From: Gammaproteobacteria bacterium
Lineage (GTDB): Bacteria; Pseudomonadota; Gammaproteobacteria; SZUA-229
Direction of reading: 5' to 3'
Assembly (NCBI GenBank): GCA_029881795.1
Contig: JAOULX010000012.1
Location: 1-64,000, forward strand
Length of the DNA: 64,000 nt
Shown piece by piece: positions 35,614 through 52,638 of this stretch. The position numbers were made by a program, and so were the translations under genes. A model generated the notes under the pieces. That model saw only the letters and a list, made by a program, of their open reading frames with translations, ran no database searches and had not been told where the DNA came from. Position 1 is the stretch's first letter; each line of letters starts with the position of its first letter.

Positions 35614-36810
35614 TCAGCTGCAGACCTTATTTCTCCCCATTTTTTTAGCTTTATAAAGCGCCTTATCAGCAGCTTTAATTACATCATGCGGTACTACCAG
35701 TTTTTCCGTGCGATTTGCAACCCCGATACTGATTGTAACTTGCACAATTTTATCACTGGATTTTCTGGCTTTACGCTGACGACGATCTTTATTACGTAAT
35801 CTAAAGTCCGACTCACCAACACAGATTCTGACAAAATCCAGATTTTCTTTTACTTCGTTACTGCTTTTTCCAGGATACACAATCGTAAATTCCTCGCCAC
35901 CATAACGAAACGCCTTACCACCGGAAACAGCCTGCCTGACCCTTGACGCCACCATTTTTAATACCTGATCACCGACGTCATGGCCATAAGTGTCATTGAA
36001 CTTTTTAAAATGATCGATATCCAGCATAGCAATTGAATAATTACCCCCAAGTTTGAGCAACTCCTCCTCCAGTGCCCGCCGTCCGGGCAGCCCGGTAAGC
36101 TGATCAATATAAGCCATGCTCCAGGTTTCCTGGATAACAGCTATCACCAGCATCAGCATTGCCGCGCTTGCAAAGACTGCCATAGCTGTATAGCGGGATT
36201 TAAAATAAAGCATCGCAATAGCTGCCAATAACGCAATCAATATTGCGCTATTTTGTGCGGTAGCCTGAACAAACCAGCGGCCGTTAAGAATCAGCAGCGC
36301 CAGTATCATCATTAATAATGCAAGCTGTGAAAACACCGAGTGTTTTAAAAATGCAAGATCTAAAAAATTCCAGCCGAGCAGCGGCCGTAAAAGCTCAGGG
36401 AAATATTTGGCCATGATCATGCAAATTAACAGCGGTAAAAATAACAAAGCGAAGCGGCTTCCACCCCACCAGGTCAGCATACCGCGCTCTTTTAACAACG
36501 AGATTATCATCATATTGAGCGGCAATAACACGGTTAAAGCCAGCCAGACAATTTTTGCTTCAACAATAGCCGCCAGTGGTAAATACCACTGCATCACCGC
36601 ATAGATGATCACCACCGCCAGTGTGCTAAAAAACAGCAGACTACGGTTAAATTTAAAACAGAGACTGAGTGTAATAACCGCGATAATAACTGGCAGAAGC
36701 TGAATCAAGGGTAACTGAGCTACTGCTAAGGCCTCAGCTTTTGGATACAGAAAAATCGCCAATCCTAACAGGACCAGAGGCAAAACAAGCGTGGATAGAT
36801 TACGTAACAC
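35614..36810 (-). CDS. Membrane-bound diguanylate cyclase
   Basis: 398 aa. The first 230 or so residues form about eight hydrophobic helices. The GGDEF domain follows, with MLDIDHFKKFNDTYGHDVGDQVLK (metal and GTP binding) and RYGGEEF as the active site, so it should make c-di-GMP. The allosteric I-site RxxD expected before the motif is absent (SGGKAFRYGGEEF), so product inhibition may be missing. It sits alone, 230 bp downstream of the kinase operon on the same strand. Confidence 0.9.
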   Translation of the reverse strand: MLRNLSTLVLPLVLLGLAIFLYPKAEALAVAQLPLIQLLPVIIAVITLSLCFKFNRSLLFFSTLAVVIIYAVMQWYLPLAAIVEAKIVWLALTVLLPLNMMIISLLKERGMLTWWGGSRFALLFLPLLICMIMAKYFPELLRPLLGWNFLDLAFLKHSVFSQLALLMMILALLILNGRWFVQATAQNSAILIALLAAIAMLYFKSRYTAMAVFASAAMLMLVIAVIQETWSMAYIDQLTGLPGRRALEEELLKLGGNYSIAMLDIDHFKKFNDTYGHDVGDQVLKMVASRVRQAVSGGKAFRYGGEEFTIVYPGKSSNEVKENLDFVRICVGESDFRLRNKDRRQRKARKSSDKIVQVTISIGVANRTEKLVVPHDVIKAADKALYKAKKMGRNKVCS

Positions 36811-42770: not shown

Positions 42771-44837
42771 TCAAGTGATACAGGGCTCGGGCATTGACAC
42801 ACCATAGCCTTGTGCGAAATCAACACCGATCTCATTCAGTTTTTTAAGAATATCATCATTTTCAACAAACTCGGCAATGGTAAGAATGCCCATGACATGA
42901 CCAATCTGATTAATCGCACTCACCATACTGTAACTGACCGGATCGCAAACAATGTCTTTTACCAGCATGCCGTCTATTTTTAAAAAATCCACATCGAGAT
43001 TTTTTAAATATGCAAAAGATGACACACCACTGCCGAAATCATCCAGCGCAAATAAAAAGCCTCTGGCTTTTAATTGTTTGATCAGTTTTCTCGTCGCCAC
43101 CAGATTAGCGATTGCTATGGTTTCTGTAATTTCAAAACAAATATGCTGACAACGGATGCCATAGTGATCGGCTTCTGTCAGAATATATTCCAGCAAATTA
43201 TCATCATTAAGAGAAGCTCCGGAAAGATTGATATTAAACAGCACCTGATCACGACTGGCTTCACTGATAGAAGGCAGCATGATGTCATTTAACGAACTAA
43301 AGCATTGTCGTATGACCCAGCGATCTATTTCCGGCATTAAGTTATAACGCTCCGCTGCCGGCAAAAATGAACCAGGGGCAAGAATAGCACCATCTTCATC
43401 AAGCATACGAATCAGCATTTCTTTATGACAAAAGCCGGGATTACTGATAGAACGCATCTCCTGAGAATATAAATGGAAGCGACCTTCTTTTAGCGCCTGC
43501 GTAATAATGCCGACCTGGTGCATTTGTCCATGACGTTTGCTCATTTCTGCATCGTCTGCACCGTAAACATGAACCCTATTTCTTCCATGATCTTTAGCCG
43601 CATAGCAGGCAATATCGGCATAGGTCAGAATTTCACTGGCACTTTCAGATAGCTCGGTAATCGCAGAAACACCAATACTGACACCTATTTCAAATACCTT
43701 TTCTTCCCATGCAAAACGAAACTTTTTTATGATCTCACGTAAATTATTCGCGACAACTTTGGCTTTATCAATACTGGTCTGATCCAGCAGCAAGCCAAAC
43801 TCGTCTCCTCCCAGCCGAGCCAGCGTATCACTGCCCCGTATGCTGTCTTCTAGCAGCACAGCAAGTTGCCGTAACAATTCATCACCTGCTATATGGCCAC
43901 AAGTGTCATTAACCAGCTTAAACTGATCAAGATCCAAATAAAGCAGTGCATGCTGGTTTTTGTGTTCTCTCGCATCCTCATGCAACAGCGATAACACGCG
44001 GTCGAATTCGCGACGATTAACCAGCCCTGTCAATGCATCGTGGCTGGCCTGCCATGAAAGCCGTTTGGATAACTCTCTGGTTTTGGTGACATCATGAAAC
44101 ACCATGACCACACCAATTATTTTTCCATTCAGAAATATCGGTGCAGCCGAATCTTCGATTGATATTTTATTACCCTGCTTTGAGATCAGCACGGTATGAT
44201 TAGCAAGCCCTACGATGCGGCCTTCTTGAAGACACCTTTCAACCGGGTTGATAACCGCTTCACCGCTAAATTCATTAACAATATGGAAGACTTCGGTGAG
44301 TTTTTTGCCCTGTACTTCATCGTTCATCCAGCCGGTGAGTTTTTCTGCAATCGGGTTCAGGTAATCAACACGGCCCTCGGCGTCTGTTGTGATCACCGCA
44401 TCACCGATTGAGTGCAGCGTGACCTCGGCTCGCTCTTTGGCTTCGGCCAGCGCCTGTTCATTCTCTTTCTGCTGTGTAATATTCTGTGCCAGCGATGTAA
44501 CACCAATAACCTCGCCAGCCGTATTGATCAATGGTGTGTTATACCATTCGCAGTGAATCAGACTGCCATCTTTTGTTCTATTGACATTGGTACTTCGCTG
44601 ACCACCCTGTTTTTCAAGCAATGCCTGCCATACCTCGGCAACAAAGGGTCGCGCAGCTTCAGGCAATATAATGTCTGCGGCCGCCTGATGAATCGCTTCA
44701 TCATAACTGTAACCAAATATCCGCTCTGCAGAAGGGTTCCAGTCAATGACTCTAAATTCCAGATCCCATTCAATGACAGCAAGCGGTGTTTGTTGGACAT
44801 GTAAAGCAAGACGTTGTTGCAGTGTAGTATCAATCAT
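42771..44837 (-). CDS. PAS-GGDEF-EAL c-di-GMP turnover protein
   Basis: About 688 aa from ATG 44837 (a TTG at 44846 with AGAAGG four bases upstream is also possible; a longer frame extends to 44981). Two PAS domains precede the catalytic parts. GGDEF: DLDQFKLVNDTCGHIAGDELL and LARLGGDEFGLLL, with an intact I-site RGSD, so it may be feedback-inhibited. EAL: KEMLIRM in place of the EAL motif, LDDFGSGVSSFAYL, DFLKIDG and FAQGYGVSMP, consistent with an active phosphodiesterase. No transmembrane segment is seen; it probably answers a cytoplasmic cue. Confidence 0.93.
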   Translation of the reverse strand: MIDTTLQQRLALHVQQTPLAVIEWDLEFRVIDWNPSAERIFGYSYDEAIHQAAADIILPEAARPFVAEVWQALLEKQGGQRSTNVNRTKDGSLIHCEWYNTPLINTAGEVIGVTSLAQNITQQKENEQALAEAKERAEVTLHSIGDAVITTDAEGRVDYLNPIAEKLTGWMNDEVQGKKLTEVFHIVNEFSGEAVINPVERCLQEGRIVGLANHTVLISKQGNKISIEDSAAPIFLNGKIIGVVMVFHDVTKTRELSKRLSWQASHDALTGLVNRREFDRVLSLLHEDAREHKNQHALLYLDLDQFKLVNDTCGHIAGDELLRQLAVLLEDSIRGSDTLARLGGDEFGLLLDQTSIDKAKVVANNLREIIKKFRFAWEEKVFEIGVSIGVSAITELSESASEILTYADIACYAAKDHGRNRVHVYGADDAEMSKRHGQMHQVGIITQALKEGRFHLYSQEMRSISNPGFCHKEMLIRMLDEDGAILAPGSFLPAAERYNLMPEIDRWVIRQCFSSLNDIMLPSISEASRDQVLFNINLSGASLNDDNLLEYILTEADHYGIRCQHICFEITETIAIANLVATRKLIKQLKARGFLFALDDFGSGVSSFAYLKNLDVDFLKIDGMLVKDIVCDPVSYSMVSAINQIGHVMGILTIAEFVENDDILKKLNEIGVDFAQGYGVSMPEPCIT

Positions 44838-45095
44838 ATAATCCAAGGAGCCTTCTTTCTTTTTTATAACACTATAGACTATCAGGTTAATTTTGGCATT
44901 CAAACCCCGAATCAAACAGTCGAAGTTATCGTCAGGTACAGCACCTTTGCAATATGGTGGTCTATAATAGACGGTTAACAAGCTGTATTATTAGTCAAAA
45001 ATTGACTGATCAGTTTTTTGAGTTATCTTACAAATAACATCATCGATAACAAACATACCGATGCTGTGTAGCGCTTTAAGCGGGTAACTAAATCT

Positions 45096-49521: not shown

Positions 49522-50487
49522 TTATAACCAGTCTGCCAGCATCACACCTAGCCCTATGCGCTCACGTTTCACATTATAATCTATCAGTGTCTCACCATAG
49601 CCATTAAAATATTGCAGATACAGTCGCAAATCGCTTTTGTGCAGAAAAGTGAAAACCTGCTGCAAAGGCCGAGACCAGCTGAACTGAAAATTAATTTTAT
49701 TATTGTTCAGCTCACTGTCTCTAATCAGAAATGAATAGTTACTGTGATCACCCGAATAGAAATATTTAAGCTCTGCATTACCTACGTACTTTTCAATATT
49801 CTCGTTATCATCGCCGACAAAATCACCTGGCAAAGCTTTTTTATCTTCCGGCCACCTGCTCCAGGCTTTAAATGTGACATAATGTTTATTTTTTTCAAAA
49901 ACAAAATCGATATAGCTTTTATTCCAGCTTCTAGAAGTCGGCGGAACACTTCCATTAGACTGATGATCAACCGGGGCATAATTTATCATACGCAAGGCCC
50001 AGCTACCCGCTGATTTTCTTTTAAATAGCTGCGTCACCATCAGTTCAGGTTCAAAGTTAGTATCTCTAAACGGTGCTGAACGGTCAAAATTAGTCATCTG
50101 CCAGACCGAAATCTGGCTATATGCAAAATAGGTAATACACTGCGTACCATCAATCCACAGACATCTGGCTGGTTTCTCATAACTTGACAAGGGGATTTTA
50201 AAACTTATCTGAAATTTTGTTTCAAAATTCTGATATTCCTCTATACCGCCACTTAAACCATCAACATAAGAGCCAATAAAATAATTCGGTTTGTACGGGA
50301 TTAAAACAAAAGGCAGATTACTGATATTTGTTTCTATACAGAAGCGACTATCAAGCGCACCATTTGCATCCTGACACTGATCAAGACTACTTTCGCTGGC
50401 TATCAGCGGATAACAAACTATGGCACAACTGAAAAATACCAAACTCAATAATAGTGATTTAACAGACTGAGAGCAGTAACAATCCAT
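49522..50487 (-). CDS. pldA: Outer-membrane phospholipase A
   Basis: A 321-aa OMPLA. The catalytic triad is intact and spaced exactly as in E. coli: His175, Ser177 and Asn189 in DHQSNGSVPPTSRSWNK. Barrel strands follow (FSWSRPLQQVFTFLHKSDLRLYLQYFNGYGETLIDYN is the conserved region). The protein hydrolyses phospholipids flipped to the outer leaflet, using calcium and dimerisation. AAGGAGATGTTGCT gives a strong ribosome-binding site. An N-terminal extension carries four extra Cys. Monocistronic. Confidence 0.92.
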   Translation of the reverse strand: MDCYCSQSVKSLLLSLVFFSCAIVCYPLIASESSLDQCQDANGALDSRFCIETNISNLPFVLIPYKPNYFIGSYVDGLSGGIEEYQNFETKFQISFKIPLSSYEKPARCLWIDGTQCITYFAYSQISVWQMTNFDRSAPFRDTNFEPELMVTQLFKRKSAGSWALRMINYAPVDHQSNGSVPPTSRSWNKSYIDFVFEKNKHYVTFKAWSRWPEDKKALPGDFVGDDNENIEKYVGNAELKYFYSGDHSNYSFLIRDSELNNNKINFQFSWSRPLQQVFTFLHKSDLRLYLQYFNGYGETLIDYNVKRERIGLGVMLADWL

Positions 50488-50844
50488 AGCAACATCTCCT
50501 TTTTATCTCACAAAAACATTTTAAATACATAAAGGCCATGACGTGATAAATCTAAAGCACAGTTATCACAATACGTCTTCAATCCTCTGAAGAGTCGTCA
50601 TCACATATTACAACTTTAGATTAAGATTATATAGCGACTTATGAAAGGGAATATGAATAAAGCTAATGTAATTCACTGATAACTATAGCAAGCTTAAAAC
50701 TAATCGCGGTTTTATATAGATCACAAGGAAAAACACTAAAAACTATTGTGAATGAGCATCGCCACTTTCTTTTTCTGTCAGCACATAAGATTTTGTGATG
50801 CTTTTATTCGGGATTCAGAGCAGATCCCGATATCTGAGGTGTTA
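50488..50844. other. Intergenic region with no gene seen
   Basis: It holds the promoter of pldA and the 3' end of the RDD gene. A small hairpin TCTTCA/TGAAGA (50576-50593) is present. The open frame on the plus strand from about 50752 lies mostly antisense to the RDD gene and is not credible. Confidence 0.45.
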
Positions 50845-51303
50845 TTATTGATTAAGGTCTTTGAATACTATCTGCTTGGCAGCTTTTTGTTTAATAACGA
50901 CTGTGCCTGCAAGCTTGTCATGCCAGCCCTGCTTACGCTTATCAAAGCCGATCCAGATAATTCCCAGAAACAGTGGCAACATAGACAGATAATACCCCAG
51001 ATAACGACCGACAAACTGCCGTGCTGATGGTTTTTCACCAGTTTGTGCATCCACAATACTCAGCTTCAATAGCATCTTTCCCGGTGTCGCAGACTTATAT
51101 ACCCAGAAACCAATTACAGCAATCGCCGGTAACAGATAATTTAAAATGAAATCCCATGCACCTTCGACAAAAGACTCACCCACCCAGTAACCACTACCGT
51201 ATATGGCAGTAAGAGCCGGTACAAGAATAAGTAAGATCAGCACACTGTCAATTATCGCAGCAAAGGTTCTGATCCAGAAACCAGCATATCCATTTTCAGT
51301 CAT
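50845..51303 (-). CDS. RDD-family membrane protein
   Basis: A 152-aa protein with three hydrophobic helices: AGFWIRTFAAIIDSVLILLILVPAL (with the Arg-Asp pair typical of RDD), YLLPAIAVIGFWVYKS, and LGYYLSMLPLFLGIIWIGF. It ends with the DKRKQGWHDKLAGTVVIK signature. RDD proteins are small, often with unknown transport or stress roles. It lies downstream of the c-di-GMP riboswitch candidate and the 33-codon ORF on the same strand, so it may be under c-di-GMP control. Confidence 0.85.
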   Translation of the reverse strand: MTENGYAGFWIRTFAAIIDSVLILLILVPALTAIYGSGYWVGESFVEGAWDFILNYLLPAIAVIGFWVYKSATPGKMLLKLSIVDAQTGEKPSARQFVGRYLGYYLSMLPLFLGIIWIGFDKRKQGWHDKLAGTVVIKQKAAKQIVFKDLNQ

Positions 51304-51421
51304 ATATTTTTATCCAAAGTATTGCTACTGATTACAGCCATGATATTTCCAGCGTATTGCTTTGTTACCAGCAGATTAAGCCGCACAGTTAACAGCAGCG
51401 TGCTTATTGTTAACAGACTAG

Positions 51422-51523
51422 TTAACCAGTGACTAGTTGCACACTAAACACAAGCAAAAAATAAAGCACAAAAATAATAACGGTATTTGAAATTTTTGAA
51501 TGTGGACGTCTGTAATCGCGCAT
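51422..51523 (-). CDS. Small membrane peptide of 33 aa
   Basis: ATG (51521-51523) to TAA (51422-51424), reading MRDYRRPHSKISNTVII and continuing FVLYFLLVFSVQLVTG. A basic N-terminus precedes one strong transmembrane helix, so it would insert with a cytoplasmic N-terminus. GACGGGG lies a few bases upstream as a weak ribosome-binding site. It sits between the riboswitch candidate and the RDD gene on the same strand. Too short to be assigned to a family; it could also be chance. Confidence 0.45.
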   Translation of the reverse strand: MRDYRRPHSKISNTVIIFVLYFLLVFSVQLVTG

Positions 51524-51599
51524 GATAACCCCGTCATAGTAGCTGTAAAAATATACCAGACAAAGCCGTCATCAAGAGAAAATGACAATGCTTGCTTCT

Positions 51600-51679
51600 G
51601 GCGGTTCCGCTATCTTGGTAATAAACCAAGACCGGTGACTTTGCGACCTCACCCTCACAGATGAGTTAGCCTTTTTCAG
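51600..51679 (-). promoter_or_regulatory. c-di-GMP-I (GEMM) riboswitch candidate
   Basis: On the minus strand the sequence contains AGGCTAACTC. A P2 hairpin CTCATC/GGTGAG follows, then GTCGCAAAGTCACCGGTCT (GEMM consensus GACGCAAAGCC-CCGG). The P3 hairpin is TCTTGG-TTTATTA-CCAAGA, with TAGCGG after it and a final pairing segment. Order and spacing match the class I c-di-GMP aptamer. Downstream are the 33-codon ORF and the RDD gene. A possible -35/-10 (TTGATA, TACAAC) lies 5' of it. Confidence 0.72.
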
Positions 51680-51801: not shown

Positions 51802-52527
51802 TCACTTTGTTAATTTCGAATTTTCTACAATCAATGGATAGACATAACCATAATTAAAGTCTTTATCCAGCGCCAGAGTACCCTTCAGTGTAACCACCTC
51901 ATCAAGTTGTGCTGTTTCATCTGTGGTCGCCGTCAGGTCCTGATGCGTACTGCTATCACGGATATGAATCCAATTTTTTCCCATCACCTTAGCAGTAAAT
52001 TTTGTGACCTGACCACGTACCAGTACAGATTTTCCCTCGAGACTTTTCTTATTTATATATATATCAGAAATTGTATAGCCACCTTCTACCTTCTCAATAC
52101 CTTCAGCCGGAGGCTTATATTGATTATTTTTTATTTTCGCATGCGGTAATAGATGTGCAGGATCATCAGAATTTTCTGTGACCTTGTCCGTAATAAAACG
52201 GGCAACGAAATACACAACTTTAAAGTCCCGATTCAGCGACTTGCTATAGTGATTATTCATAGGCATCTCAGTGGTGATCGCAATCATATCGCCAATATTA
52301 ACCGTTGTCTTAGGCGCCGCAGCCCAGACATTGAGCTCACCGTTTTCTATCCTGACATAAGTATAACCTGCAGCATCCATTGTCTCTGTGACTTTTCCGT
52401 ACATCTTTTCGGCATTTGAAGAGGACGGTTTTAGCTGATTATTTTGCTCAGCAAAAGACATCTTAACAACACTGAATCCTGTCATTAGAGTAATTACTAT
52501 TGTTAGTACATTGATACGTTGAAGCAT
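51802..52527 (-). CDS. Exported tandem OB-fold protein, NrfJ-like
   Basis: A 241-aa protein from ATG 52527, chosen because AGGAGA lies nine bases upstream; a longer frame to 52551 is less supported. Signal peptide, then an OB-fold-like repeat: MYGKVTETMDAAGYTYVRIENGELNVWAA and later GKSVLVRGQVTKFTAKVMGKNWIHIRDSS. The pattern matches the small NrfJ-like proteins linked to cytochrome genes, here doubled. No cytochrome is next to it. Function not established. Confidence 0.7.
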   Translation of the reverse strand: MLQRINVLTIVITLMTGFSVVKMSFAEQNNQLKPSSSNAEKMYGKVTETMDAAGYTYVRIENGELNVWAAAPKTTVNIGDMIAITTEMPMNNHYSKSLNRDFKVVYFVARFITDKVTENSDDPAHLLPHAKIKNNQYKPPAEGIEKVEGGYTISDIYINKKSLEGKSVLVRGQVTKFTAKVMGKNWIHIRDSSTHQDLTATTDETAQLDEVVTLKGTLALDKDFNYGYVYPLIVENSKLTK

Positions 52528-52638
52528 TTCTGACTTTCTCCTAATACACAATTGAAGCGCAGCTTGACATTTACTGCGACTAAAAATATTTTATTATTAT
52601 CTGTCTGACAACCACAAAACAATGCCATTGAGCAGAAC

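Follow-up and report, generated by a model that had tools for sequence, protein, structure and literature searches.

A c-di-GMP-I riboswitch and a conserved 33-residue membrane peptide as its probable first target in uncultured Gammaproteobacteria

We report here on a locus within a 64 kb stretch of gammaproteobacterial DNA (the window, i.e., the whole stretch analysed), in which a c-di-GMP-I riboswitch aptamer is followed on the minus strand by a hairpin that overlaps the aptamer and ends in a U-run, and then by a small reading frame for a one-helix membrane peptide of 33 residues. The peptide is conserved as a protein in a congener, at a syntenic locus that lacks the RDD-family gene lying next in the window. 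Considering all these findings jointly, we favour, with some reserve, the reading that the peptide is translated and constitutes the first target of an ON switch responding to c-di-GMP.

Results

The aptamer was recovered at positions 51681-51597 (minus strand) by an Rfam scan of the entire window, where it matched the full length of RF01051 (model positions 1-87) with 49.6 bits and E = 1.1e-6, the gathering score of this model being 35 bits; a tRNA was the sole other Rfam match in the 64 kb. An earlier interpretation made from the letters alone (hereafter the sequence-only reading) had recognised the GEMM core with the P2 and P3 hairpins in the right order on this strand, and had proposed a covariance score as the check; the sequence and the score both bear it out, and only the start has to be shifted two bases upstream, from 51679 as originally noted to 51681. 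The genome carries two further c-di-GMP-I elements, with 78.5 and 76.9 bits, for a total of three, and we attribute the lower score of the window aptamer to its GUGA P2 loop and to a P3 stem devoid of the usual tetraloop receptor letters. By every computational test run this RNA is a riboswitch, and we regard its identity as a c-di-GMP-I element as practically certain. Control by c-di-GMP is further favoured by the presence in the window of genes, at 35614-36810 and 42771-44981, for a GGDEF and a GGDEF-EAL protein, respectively, as the sequence-only reading had correctly pointed out when listing a diguanylate cyclase and a GGDEF-EAL protein.

The two aptamer stems were also assessed across five loci of the genus, where 93 of 93 cells of P2 and P3 are paired and 8 of the 19 pairs are altered on both sides (6 in P2, 2 in P3), a count equalled in none of 500 shuffles; four of five covariation measures were likewise reached by none of them, in a comparison from which kinship was not removed. 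These five loci have in common a subtype with a GYRA-type loop and a paired P3. A GUGA loop would dock to a CU:AG segment, and the window aptamer displays a GUGA loop together with a fully paired CU:AG segment in P3. Among the aptamers surveyed, 99 of 118 were classified in this respect and 19 skipped, the P2 loop not being called GNRA in 14 of the 99; a fully paired P3 segment occurred with 13 of 24 non-GAAA GNRA loops (12 of 22 GYRA loops) versus 0 of 61 GAAA loops (Fisher p 3.4e-9, uncorrected for kinship, with 5 of the 13 positives being loci of the window's own genus). This confinement of the paired P3 to non-GAAA GNRA loops indicates that the P2 loop and the P3 stem go together, and a GYRA subtype of class I, having such a loop without the usual receptor, is described in the available part of PMC11218506. 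Several other aptamers (L050, L060, L102 and L117, among others) deviate in P3 receptor or core letters and might be candidates for altered ligand specificity; rare variants of the c-di-GMP-I class sense c-AMP-GMP, according to the part of PMC7266159 consulted.

The first reading frame after the riboswitch, at 51422-51523 (minus strand), encodes the 33-residue peptide MRDYRRPHSKISNTVIIFVLYFLLVFSVQLVTG, with the basic start and the single helix that the sequence-only reading had ascribed to it. One helix is predicted over residues 8-32 (mean pLDDT 81, from two sequences), hydropathy reaches 2.82 over 17 residues, and the peptide is short, hydrophobic and one-helix, as type I toxins are. An ortholog of equal length, with 22 of 33 residues identical, is encoded by the congener G001 (uncultured Gammaproteobacteria MAG 8_1_Jan_SF_Bin54). 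The two frames differ at 30 of 99 coding bases, distributed 9/3/18 by codon position, and when such changes were placed at random, at least 22 residues were kept without a stop in 7 of 20,000 trials; the dN/dS of the pair (0.20/3.67) is saturated and was given no weight. An overlapping TTG frame of 51 residues in the window is shortened to 32 residues in G001. Judged by this codon pattern, the small gene is under selection at the protein level, and we consider its translation very likely. Conservation of the small frame behind the riboswitch in relatives had been suggested as a further check, and the one relative with a riboswitch at this locus does have the frame, conserved as a protein.

The peptide belongs to no family in the databases searched, its best Pfam match reaching 14.5 bits where the cut-off is 25 and NCBIfam and PADLOC giving no match; likewise, no relatives were found in the plasmids and phages searched. 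A scan of GTDB contigs returned the two G001 contigs only, and a sample of 369 genomes of the class yielded weak partial matches only. A wider peptide family was considered and rejected, since in 54 genomes of the family those of the matches beyond G001 (E 0.05 to 2.2) that were inspected, at L028, L029, L031 and L032, are stretches inside other frames or genes. By the family, class-sample and GTDB contig searches, the peptide is known from two genomes only, those of the window and G001.

At the orthologous locus of G001, where the riboswitch matches RF01051 with 51.2 bits, the upstream gene is followed by the riboswitch, the peptide and the PLA1-family gene, which is the arrangement of the window minus the RDD gene. 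The upstream gene (51802-52551, minus strand; no Pfam family above cut-off) is 53% identical and occupies the same place in G001, marking the locus as syntenic, and the PLA1 phospholipase A family protein (49522-50487, minus strand; PF02253, 221 bits) is 72% identical; the latter scores 151 bits with the NCBIfam phospholipase A equivalog, under the cut-off of 369. The G001 locus is split, the riboswitch and peptide lying at the end of one contig and the peptide again at the end of another; both contigs have an exact 127-base end in common and are titled scaffold_203_c1 and scaffold_203_c2.

In the window, the peptide is followed by a gene for an RDD-family membrane protein of 152 residues (50845-51303, minus strand; PF06271, 88.7 bits versus a cut-off of 24.1). 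The sequence-only reading had placed an RDD protein here, which is correct, but had not remarked on its lack of conservation: in G001, the 432-base gap between the peptide and PLA1 bears no tblastn trace of it, and matches to RDD at other places in the congeners have only 24-25% identity. The absence of this gene from the G001 locus leads us to reject the RDD protein as the main target and, as the peptide is kept there, leaves the peptide as the conserved first gene; from this comparison the RDD gene looks like a local extra of the window genome, and the tiny peptide, rather than the RDD protein, is probably the real target of the riboswitch. Two of the four genomes of the genus (G002 and G003) lack the peptide, the PLA1 gene and the upstream gene; G003 is 98% complete and G002 is 68% complete, so that the absence from G002 is weak. 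The PLA1-family gene is perhaps a distal member of the unit. Directly after the RDD stop, at 50808-50830, there is a perfect stem of seven pairs (TCGGGAT/ATCCCGA) without a T-run, which may end the transcript before PLA1.

A terminator-like hairpin, on which the sequence-only reading was silent, occupies 51602-51555 (minus strand) and is directly followed by the U-rich tail AUAUUUUU (51554-51547, minus strand). Its folding energy is -17.2 kcal/mol, with z -3.1 against 200 dinucleotide shuffles and z -3.0 against single-base shuffles, and its 5' arm GCCAGA (51602-51597) consists of the six bases with which the aptamer match ends and pairs with UCUGGU. A like hairpin in G001 has a modest energy of -10.8 kcal/mol (z -2.8 against single-base shuffles) and a tail of A plus nine U. 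Since the arm is part of both structures, the complete aptamer and the hairpin are, by folding, mutually exclusive, which suggests an ON switch acting by antitermination; we consider it fairly probable that c-di-GMP blocks termination in this manner and thus switches the peptide on. The GCCAGA/UCUGG pairing is also found at three other loci of the genus (L015, L020 and L022), where the arm sits before lipoprotein-like genes and lacks a clear U-run, and where control may differ from that of the window locus.

A simple terminator scan did not report the hairpin at the window locus. Similarly, a simple consensus scan found no promoter-like site 5' of the aptamer in the window; three such sites lie downstream of the aptamer on the same strand, and the four found in all compare with 3.5 expected by chance. 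G001 has a terminator-like site that separates the riboswitch from the upstream gene, by which the riboswitch transcript would be a unit of its own.

To place the locus among others of its kind, the reading frames downstream of c-di-GMP-I aptamers were surveyed, using 118 of 141 distinct aptamer matches, of which all but one have sequence downstream (117 loci); left out were L025, 14 matches of low score (at most 43.7 bits), 6 adjacent or tandem copies and 2 matches at contig ends, 23 in total. No Shine-Dalgarno sequence was required, as a survey with this requirement misses the peptide, whose frame is preceded by a weak one (GGGG). A small ATG membrane frame before the first frame of 100 residues was found at 6 of the 117 loci, versus 1.2 expected by chance: the window, its G001 ortholog, L018, L067, L124 and L001. 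We take the frame at L001 to be due to chance. At L124 and L067 the frames comprise 43 and 57 residues and lie 75 and 165 bases, respectively, behind the aptamer, and we presume both to be lipoprotein-like. At most of the surveyed gammaproteobacterial loci, the switch is followed first by a gene for a larger protein; in the genus, c-di-GMP-I aptamers also precede genes for lipoprotein-like proteins, a dCache-HAMP sensor, a repeat protein and a receiver-PilZ protein. The last of these, a likely c-di-GMP binder, is encoded at L019:515-1252 (minus strand), where a hydrophobic frame of 29 residues begins at the end of the aptamer.

The remaining case, L018:1266-1412 (minus strand), belongs to another genus of the family and encodes a one-helix peptide of 48 residues as the lone gene before a frame on the opposite strand. 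Here, letters of the aptamer P3 can pair with a GACTGGA immediately before a T-run. Homology of this peptide to the 33-residue one was considered and found unsupported: in the 54 family genomes its best match outside its own genome has E 0.0058, and three congeneric matches near E 0.01 to 0.03 lie inside frames of about 280 residues.

Three genomes, two from the window's family and one from another, encode a PagP-family protein (PF07017, 52-54 bits) in the first large frame after a c-di-GMP-I riboswitch (L006:824-1405, minus strand; L014:1689-2252, plus strand; L066:893-1429, minus strand). A literature search combining c-di-GMP, riboswitch and PagP returned nothing beyond a general review, as judged by its title.

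Discussion

Based on the structures described, we propose that without c-di-GMP the hairpin would form and transcription would end, and that in the presence of c-di-GMP the 3' strand would be kept in the aptamer, the hairpin would not form and the peptide would be produced. The peptide would reside in the inner membrane in an N-in/C-out orientation, as suggested by its basic N-terminus, one helix and short tail, and in the window genome the RDD gene additionally stands behind it. Other bacterial one-helix small proteins bind and modulate bigger envelope proteins; by likeness to these, the peptide might, at high c-di-GMP, bind a larger envelope protein and tune it, a role that we put forward tentatively.

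The direction and level of control assumed in this model could be otherwise, with the riboswitch being OFF or acting on the start of translation instead of on termination. Class I switches are generally OFF in Clostridioides difficile (PMC6200980, in the part consulted), the simple terminator scan missed the window hairpin, and that of G001 is modest; nonetheless, an arm made of the last six aptamer bases renders the two structures mutually exclusive, and U-rich tails are found in both orthologs, so that we regard this alternative as rather doubtful. Far less probable is that the small frame arose by chance. Its Shine-Dalgarno sequence is weak and chance would place a small ATG membrane frame at about 1.2 of the 117 loci, but the relative has a frame of equal length, with an excess of third-position changes and an amino-acid identity seldom reached under random placement.

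That the 33-codon frame is a mere leader (uORF), the true targets being PLA1 in the two species and, in the window, RDD as well, would agree with the downstream position of the PLA1 gene, in the same orientation, in each of the genomes, and with the three genomes in which GEMM-I directly precedes PagP, another outer-membrane lipid enzyme family. We find it unlikely, however, given that RDD is missing from the G001 locus, that PLA1 lies 432 bases past the peptide there, that the RDD stop in the window is followed by a seven-pair stem lacking a T-run, and that the frame is kept at the amino-acid level, helix included. The same conserved helix, along with the size of the peptide, would suit a growth-arresting membrane toxin, type I-like, under c-di-GMP control; indeed, in the C. 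difficile type I pairs CD0977.1-RCd11 and CD2889-RCd12, class I switches precede the antisense antitoxin RNAs of membrane-associated toxins (PMC7699646, in the part consulted). In those pairs, however, the switch acts on the antitoxin and not on the toxin, the peptide matched nothing in plasmids, phages, NCBIfam or PADLOC, and a consensus scan of the window detected no plus-strand promoter-like site over the frame. A toxin is, in our view, quite improbable. A like consensus scan of G001 gave two plus-strand promoter-like sites (237-283), which are directed away from the frame at 10-108. The peptide as a translated first target of an ON switch accords best with our own judgement, and the sequence-only reading of a riboswitch before a small membrane peptide as its target is supported, in a comparison of two genomes.

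If the peptide is indeed the target, c-di-GMP may reach a membrane protein via a microprotein, without a c-di-GMP-binding protein as intermediary. Furthermore, riboswitches can flag microproteins that gene finders may miss, codon conservation behind an RNA landmark being a usable filter for them. As a speculation that we would not expect to hold in full, c-di-GMP might directly turn on one-helix membrane microproteins across this family of uncultured Gammaproteobacteria, the peptides of 33 and 48 residues, which have no detectable relation, being first or sole targets of antiterminating switches, and the peptide of the window locus tuning outer-membrane lipid work, with PLA1 adjacent and PagP under a like switch in relatives.

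Comparison with known systems

The window aptamer falls within the ordinary variation of the c-di-GMP-I riboswitch, and it is the target that is unusual. The window element matches the full model of the class, with its core, P2 and P3, and has a GUGA loop without the usual receptor, as presented for the GYRA subtype in the available part of PMC11218506. Those gammaproteobacterial c-di-GMP-I switches that stand before larger proteins belong to the same aptamer class, but their first targets are much larger than the window peptide. For most of the GEMM regulon, function was unknown in a 2013 survey (PMC3766115, in the part consulted). Our literature search, for which most subscription papers were outside reach, found no description of a c-di-GMP riboswitch before a one-helix peptide in Gammaproteobacteria.

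The closest likenesses come from C. difficile, where small proteins of 58 residues without conserved domains are under class I c-di-GMP riboswitches (PMC11477304, in the part consulted). These are likewise short, domain-less and riboswitch-controlled, although they belong to another phylum and are longer, and the part of the source consulted does not describe them as membrane proteins. The sequence-only reading had held a tiny membrane peptide to be an unusual direct target of c-di-GMP: such targets are rare among the 117 loci, yet the 58-residue cases make the window peptide less unusual than was supposed. The C. difficile toxin-antitoxin pairs discussed above also combine a class I riboswitch with a small membrane-associated protein; there, going by the available part of the source, the switch stands before the antitoxin RNA, whereas in the window it stands before the peptide itself. 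A small protein behind a class I switch is a known kind of arrangement, and the conserved one-helix target of 33 residues, of which we found no previous description, is a variant of it.
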